From assembly GCA_009695305.1 (NCBI GenBank), contig SIBG01000008.1:1-64000 (forward strand): DNA of 64,000 nucleotides, read 5' to 3'. Below the pieces are notes generated by a model, which was not told the origin of the DNA, ran no database searches, and saw only the letters and a program-made list of their open reading frames with translations. Position numbers and translations under genes: made by a program. Each line of letters begins with the position of its first letter. Positions within the stretch are counted from its first letter, which is position 1. This stretch comes from Opitutus sp. (lineage in GTDB: Bacteria > Verrucomicrobiota > Verrucomicrobiia > Opitutales > Opitutaceae). Of the stretch, positions 18,521 to 56,946 are shown one piece after another.

Positions 18521-18600
18521 GGTAGGGCGGGTTATCCCTAACCCGCCGTCTCAGGATTCTCGCATGCGGCAAAGCGGCGGGTTAGCGATAACCCGCCCTG

Positions 18601-26356: not shown

Positions 26357-26366
26357 GGCTTTACAT

Positions 26367-26451
26367 GTCATTGCGAGGAGCCGAAGGCGACGAAGCAATC
26401 CAGCTGTTGCGCTGGATCGCCGCGGCCCGCTGACGCAGGCCTCGCGATGAC
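26367..26451. repeat. GTCATTGCGAGG...CCTCGCGATGAC inverted dispersed repeat (family B)
   Basis: Terminal 12-nt inverted repeats with 'AGCGAAG/GACGAAGCAATCCAGC..GCTGGATCGC' core; second version inside the MITE at 56756. Confidence 0.85.
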
Positions 26452-26507
26452 CAACCCAGGCTACCAGAAACTTGCCATACCCGGAAATACTTGTTTTCGT
26501 TCCTGTG

Positions 26508-55725: not shown

Positions 55726-56739
55726 ATGATTTTTTCGCGCCCACTGCCCGCCGTGATTTTGTTCGCCACCCTCGGGTCCGTGGCCCTGGCCGCCACCCCG
55801 GTCCGCGCCAAACCCACGCGCCCCACCACGCCCGCTGACTCCACCGCCTACAAGGCCGCCATCATCACCGACGCCGCCACCGGCAACACGTTGTTCGAGG
55901 ATCGCGCCGACAACGTCAGTCCGCCCGCGAGCATGACGAAGCTGATGACCTTCGCGGTGCTCCACGACAAACTCGCCAGTGGGGCCGTCACCCTCGATCA
56001 GGCCGTCCGCATCACTGACGCCGATGCGAAAATCGGCGGCTCGCAGGTCTACCTCGATCCGCGCGAGACGTTTCCCGTCGAAGAACTCGTTTATGCAATG
56101 ATGATCCATTCGGCCAACGACGCCGCCCACGCGCTCGCGCGCACCGCGGCCGGCTCGATCGACGCCTTCGTCGAGTTGATGAACACCAAGGCCCGCGAGC
56201 TTGGCATGACGCACACCACTTTCCACACGCCGCACGGCCTCCCGCCCGCCACCCGCCGCGCGGAGGAAGGCGATCTCACTACGCCACGAGATTTCGCCCT
56301 GCTCGCCCGCTATCTCGTCCAAAAAACGAACGTCTTAAAATACTCCTCCATCCGCACGCGCTCCTTCGGGGCCGGCGTGCGCGCCAAGCCCTTCGACCTG
56401 ACCAATAGCGACCATCTCATCGGCCGCGTCGCCGGCGTCGACGGCCTGAAGACCGGCTTCACCAACGGCGCTGGTTTCTGCCTGACGGCGACAGCGCTGC
56501 GCAACGGTCGCCGCGTCATCGTGGTTCTCATGGGTGCCCCGGAGTCCAAGGTCCGCGACCTCAAGGTCACCGAGCTGCTCGACCGCGGATTCGCTGCGCT
56601 GCCGGTCGGTGGCCCGGCCTTCGCCGCCGCGGAATCCTCTCCCATCGCCGCCGCGCCGCTGCCCGCTCCTACTGCGAAAGCGGCCAAACCCGACGCCGGC
56701 CCCGCGATCAAGTTCTCAATTCCGCCGGCGAAAAGGTAG
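55726..56739 (+). CDS. D-alanyl-D-alanine carboxypeptidase (penicillin-binding protein 5/6-like)
   Basis: 'SPPASMTKLMTFAVL' (SxxK), 'SANDAA' (SxN), 'KTGFTNGAGFCLTATA' (KTG). Confidence 0.93.
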   Translation: MIFSRPLPAVILFATLGSVALAATPVRAKPTRPTTPADSTAYKAAIITDAATGNTLFEDRADNVSPPASMTKLMTFAVLHDKLASGAVTLDQAVRITDADAKIGGSQVYLDPRETFPVEELVYAMMIHSANDAAHALARTAAGSIDAFVELMNTKARELGMTHTTFHTPHGLPPATRRAEEGDLTTPRDFALLARYLVQKTNVLKYSSIRTRSFGAGVRAKPFDLTNSDHLIGRVAGVDGLKTGFTNGAGFCLTATALRNGRRVIVVLMGAPESKVRDLKVTELLDRGFAALPVGGPAFAAAESSPIAAAPLPAPTAKAAKPDAGPAIKFSIPPAKR

Positions 56740-56946
56740 GGCGCGTTATCCCTAATACCAACGTCTGTTAATATTTGGATTGTCATGGCGAGGAGCGAAG
56801 CGACGAAGCCATCCAGCTGGATCGCCACGGCGCGCTTCGCGCACCTCGCGATGACAAAAGTCTAATTCACAACAGCCGGAGGTATAACGCGCCGCTCAGG
56901 ATTTTCGCGCGGGTTGAGTCGGCGGATTAAAAATAGTCCGTCTACC
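56735..56946. repeat. Palindromic element A, copy 3, interrupted by a MITE-like element
   Basis: 56735-56755 plus 56888-56946 reconstitute ~80 bp matching copy 2; ends GGTAG...CTACC. Confidence 0.8.
56756..56884. mobile_element. 129-bp MITE-like element nested in element A
   Basis: Imperfect TIRs TACCAACGTCTGTT...GTCATGGCGAGG / CCTCGCGATGAC...AACAGCCGGAGGTA; flanking TAA direct repeats at 56753-56755 and 56885-56887. Confidence 0.7.

Follow-up and report, generated by a model that had tools for sequence, protein, structure and literature searches.

The locus considered here raises the question of whether a TACC...GGTA stretch interrupting a palindrome of Opitutus sp. is a mobile element and, if so, what kind of transposase moved it. 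The window (the whole stretch of DNA analysed, the first 64,000 nucleotides of contig SIBG01000008.1) carries this stretch between two convergent genes, named from their translations: a D-Ala-D-Ala-carboxypeptidase-like gene ending at 56739 on the left, and a minus-strand membrane-protein gene ending at 56942 on the right. With the insert set aside, the host palindrome spans 56735 to 56946. It starts with GGTAGGG (56735-56741) and finishes with CTACC (56942-56946), and its two ends provide the TAG stop codons of both genes here. No Rfam match was obtained in the window. Features are collected in table 1.

Table 1. Coordinates of the element, its target and comparator copies in the window.
Feature	Position	Strand	Basis
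Left part of host palindrome (GGTAGGGCGCGTTATCCCTAA), ending in left TAA	56735..56755	.	sequence and alignment with about 20 other genome copies
Left TAA of target duplication	56753-56755		sequence
129-bp MITE, TACC...GGTA	56756..56884	+	about 19 two-ended genome copies plus one-ended ones; empty site
Left IS630-type end (TACCAACGTC plus TTnGACT block, positions 19-26)	56756..56781	+	both blocks, equally spaced, in autonomous IS630 elements
Interior hairpin (TTGTCATGGCGAGG...CCTCGCGATGACAA), separate dispersed repeat	56780..56857	.	solo copies without TACC ends
Right IS630-type end (reverse strand TACCTCCGGCTGTTG...TTAGACTTTT)	56856..56884	-	comparison with other copies and IS ends
Right TAA of target duplication	56885..56887	.	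sequence and empty-site alignment
Remainder of host palindrome, right half partly degraded, ...GTCTACC	56888..56946	.	alignment with other copies
Uninterrupted host-palindrome copy (comparator)	18521..18599	.	search and alignment
Solo GTCATTGCGAGG-type hairpin without TACC ends	26366..26452	.	sequence search

The element and one TAA were deleted in silico, giving GGTAGGGCGCGTTATCCCTAACGCGCCGCTCAGGATTTTCGC, which matched palindrome copies elsewhere in the genome. About 20 uninterrupted copies in the same genome showed the predicted empty site on alignment (for example L193, GGTAGGGCGCGTTATCCCTAACGCGCCGCTCAGGATGTTCGC), with TAA present once and an extra TA in no aligned copy. Since the flanks joined with one TAA match these copies through the junction, the TAA is the duplication and TACC...GGTA is the element. 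The rejoined palindrome measured 80 bp and matched other copies, including the one at 18521-18599, in agreement with the original prediction of about 80 bp; further copies of the GGTAGGGCG(C/G)GTTATCCCTAAC(G/C)CGCC palindrome were located in the window at 2567-2640 and 18521-18599. The excision footprint claimed in that prediction was not seen, and the evidence consists instead of an insertion signature and paralogous empty sites, the latter being copies of the host palindrome.

A search of the same genome gave 67 matches, some of them produced by the palindromic core matching itself on the reverse strand. The 30 best of these were read individually, with ends recognised by pattern, and among them were about 19 two-ended copies, several one-ended copies and several solo cores. 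Two MITE subfamilies were distinguished, with mean pairwise identities of 96.0% and 93.9%. Among 200 family genomes, 45 contained the end pattern, and a reversed control pattern had no match in any listed genome of that end-pattern search. From Opitutaceae-type genomes, 53 non-redundant pairs of ends lying 60-420 bp apart were collected, a few of the TNA-flanked pairs being overlapping combinations of adjacent elements; TNA stood on both sides in 43, and N was identical in 31 of these 43, against a mean of 10.3 and a maximum of 20 in 2000 shuffled pairings, a comparison to be read as indicative, not exact, given these overlaps and the non-independence of same-family copies within one genome. 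N differed in the other 12, for which decay or recombination could account. The search for other TACC...GGTA copies that had been proposed thus returned copies with TNA duplications, of which TAA is one case. A MITE of 92 bp sharing the end pattern was abundant in one genus (G172, G079, G103, G124 and G186; e.g. L128, L134), its interior folding no better than shuffled sequence. The stretch at 56756-56884 is confirmed as a real, nested MITE: it is 129 bp long, lacks a transposase gene, has several near-identical dispersed copies, carries terminal inverted repeats and a target-site duplication with an empty site, and shares its ends with an autonomous element of related genomes, none having been found in its own.

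The long terminal inverted repeats originally described proved to be composite. About 26-29 bp on each side is an IS630-type end, and the remainder belongs to a separate 78-bp hairpin (GTCATTGCGAGG...), a dispersed repeat also found without TACC ends. Solo cores were read at five loci of the same genome (L023, L024, L026, L028 and L030), and further family genomes also contained the core, with weak matches beyond the family. The inner stretch of the interior folded at -43.0 kcal/mol (z -5.0 against mononucleotide shuffles). A second, 149-bp MITE type in the same genome has TACCAAT ends around a different hairpin (GAGGTGGGGCCGG...), of which diverged solo copies were also found (L264-L267). Several copies of this second type or of its core lie at the ends of contigs C11, C37, C43 and C63, which suggests that these repeats break the assembly. 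Other genomes held further interiors between the same ends, and many of these, not all, out-folded mononucleotide-shuffled sequence. In all likelihood, unrelated hairpins came to lie between IS630-type ends by capture and were amplified afterwards. Three TACC-ended MITEs (L054, L097 and L110) contain hairpins of the form GGTAGGG...CCCTACC, similar to the host palindrome class, so that the cargo hairpins may be kin to the host ones.

Autonomous elements with matching ends, for which a check had been advised, were present in related genomes and were not found in the draft of the own genome. Relatives carry IS630-family elements of 1.13-1.16 kb that end alike (TACCAACGTC...TTnGACTTT) and likewise duplicate TNA. 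In Geminisphaera colitermitum TAV2 (G065; L120/L147), the element is 1135 bp long, is flanked on both sides by TGA and encloses an ORF of 349 aa. Its transposase matched the NCBIfam model transpos_IS630 (NF033545) at 163.7 bits (cut-off 100) and Pfam DDE_3 (PF13358) at 65.5 bits; a candidate DDE triad, assigned by eye from motifs, is D180, D260 and E293, with 32 residues from the second D to E. A sequence comparison of this protein with PDB chains gave no match. Matching flanks were read on further full-length relatives as TTA (L150, L153, L166, L178), TAA (L151, L163, L167, L168, L171), TCA (L162, L177) and TGA (L170), and L184 had matching TAA flanks at 44% protein identity; mismatched flanks on some autonomous copies (L169, L173, L176 and L189) could be explained by decay or recombination. 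Comparison of the terminal consensus of the insertion sequences, TACCAA.gtCCc.TagctatTAgACTTTA, with that of the MITEs, TACCAACGTCt.tTgagaTTT.GACTttt, showed TACCAACGTC at positions 1-10 and TTnGACTTT near 20-28 in both. Transposase matches were obtained in 71 of 250 family genomes. Protein and DDE_3 searches of the own genome (a draft 87% complete, in 136 contigs) found no IS630 transposase, and the same searches matched 3 of 14 control genomes. On transposase sequence the partner elements are classed as IS630, and by their 3-bp TNA duplication they are not canonical.

TNA flanks were also read beyond the phylum. Plasmid loci were picked from hits to the Opitutaceae transposase, so that they are not a random IS630 sample, and triplets were read by eye from aligned ends. 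Of 18 elements with resolvable ends, 17 had TAC- or TAT-type ends and matching TNA flanks, in hosts spanning Proteobacteria, Cyanobacteria and Thermus: ISAva6, ISAzs14, two from Thermus, two from Rhizobium, and one each from Aeromonas, Enterobacter, Photobacterium, Sinorhizobium, Paracoccus, Shinella, Acetobacter, Sphingobium, Jiella, Cyanobacterium and Methylobacterium. The remaining one, from Roseomonas (L237), had clear ends and non-matching triplets; L231, L245, L247, L248 and L250, with ends not resolvable, stand outside the 18. For three elements the flanks were joined with one triplet and plasmids were searched. The Aeromonas flanks, rejoined through a single TGA without TA, matched 400 of 400 bases in one piece in the 15 listed records, and 125 records had a single place spanning 80% or more of the query, 123 of them at an identity of at least 99%. 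For the ISAva6 junction, Nostoc plasmids matched up to 390 contiguous bases at about 75% identity, within a gene annotated as mobV, and for Paracoccus one plasmid matched 284 bases in one piece at 90.5%. These three are real empty sites that support a 3-bp duplication.

Three other accounts of the locus were weighed. The stretch might be a terminator or regulatory RNA hairpin that diverged in place beside a chance TAA repeat, as its folding (-59.5 kcal/mol) and its position between convergent genes would allow. As an origin this is refuted: near-identical copies are scattered over unrelated sites, their duplications match, and both empty sites and autonomous relatives exist. We give it next to no credence; a regulatory role may have been gained later. 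An equally negligible probability is assigned to a canonical TA duplication around an element CC...GG, the TNA triplets then being fortuitous or belonging to a longer favoured target. Both ends do have TA ahead of CC, and IS630/ISY100 literature describes such a duplication (PMC2170065), but this reading predicts an empty site of the form TNA-TA-TNA, whereas the palindrome copies show a single TAA without extra TA and the Aeromonas, Nostoc (ISAva6) and Paracoccus sites are contiguous without TA. It is thereby refuted at all four sites.

Slightly more room, although still little, is left for a MITE from some other family that duplicates 3 bp, be it IS5/IS1031-like, PIF/Harbinger-like or ISAzo13/Zator-like. 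The duplication of IS5 is TNA. Duplications of 3 bp are known for these families, and Zator and ISAzo13 share this length (PMC10045372). Against such an assignment, the transposases found between these ends were all relatives of one IS630-type protein, which was itself the query of the searches, and the Pfam and NCBIfam hits of the partner transposase included no IS5/IS1031/PIF-Harbinger or ISAzo13/Zator model.

We consider it very probable that this non-autonomous MITE, with a captured hairpin inside, was mobilised by an IS630-family (DDE) transposase acting in trans and duplicated TNA on insertion. Counting against this reading are the negative transposase search of the own draft, the pairs and autonomous copies with differing N, and the TA duplication given for IS630 in the literature. 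The transposase would bind both 26-29-bp ends through TACCAACGTC and the TTnGACTTT block at about 20-28; the element would be cut out and inserted at TNA with a stagger of 3 bp, which duplicates the TNA. Between the ends, a dispersed hairpin, probably captured, stands in place of a transposase gene, and the target of this copy was the TAA beside the loop of the older palindrome, in the gap between the convergent genes. We infer this IS630 clade as the source of transposase here, as well as the cut-and-paste chemistry and the route of hairpin capture. The relative dating of the two families offered in the original prediction holds for this copy, in which the palindrome is older than the insertion. 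The MITE subfamilies, with mean pairwise identities of 94-96% versus 73% for the palindromes, are the more uniform, which fits a later MITE spread; they look younger than the palindromes, an impression from identity that selection on palindrome structure could bias.

The IS630/Tc1/mariner duplication is given as TA (PMC2170065, PMC10045372), and ISTth6, a Thermus IS630 from which the Thermus copies read here may differ, is listed with 2 bp in an open paper. No paper joining IS630 with a TNA duplication, and nothing relevant on the hairpin sequence or on Opitutaceae MITEs, was found in the open-access literature. ISY100 and canonical IS630-Tc1-mariner elements have a related transposase, with an N-terminal HTH and a C-terminal DDE domain, and terminal inverted repeats, but ISY100 duplicates TA, as shown in vitro (PMC2170065), whereas the elements here duplicate TNA and start with TACC. 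Non-TA duplications occur in the same wide group, namely TTAA in ISHsp2 (Halomonas, IS630 family; PMC3606827), TATA in Sailor (PMC8533490) and TAA/TAAA in Fot (pogo; PMC7386202), as compared with TNA here. ISAva6 (Trichormus) and ISAzs14 (Azospirillum) have TACT/TACC ends and matching TNA as read here, although, where the sequences align, their transposases share only about 28-33% identity with that of Opitutaceae. RUP, with IS630-Spn1, is likewise a short dispersed element whose ends match a presumed IS630-family mover, and its insertion into other mobile DNA is also known (PMC2229807); it differs, by description, in its TA targets, sequence and host, whereas the element here has TNA and an interior hairpin that also exists alone.

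It appears somewhat probable that IS630 elements with TACC ends make up a large subgroup, spread over several phyla, which integrates with a 3-bp TNA stagger and has been described under the TA rule, and that their Opitutaceae ends repeatedly package unrelated dispersed hairpins, amplified as MITEs. The length of the duplication mirrors the way in which a transposase holds and cleaves target DNA, and the IS630/Tc1/mariner group, with its TA rule, serves as a model for this. If true, the TNA subgroup would aid annotation (true ends TACC, not CC) and would provide a natural comparison of 2-bp and 3-bp staggers within one transposase family. The MITE shows a route by which inert hairpin repeats can reach mobility, through the gain of transposon ends.
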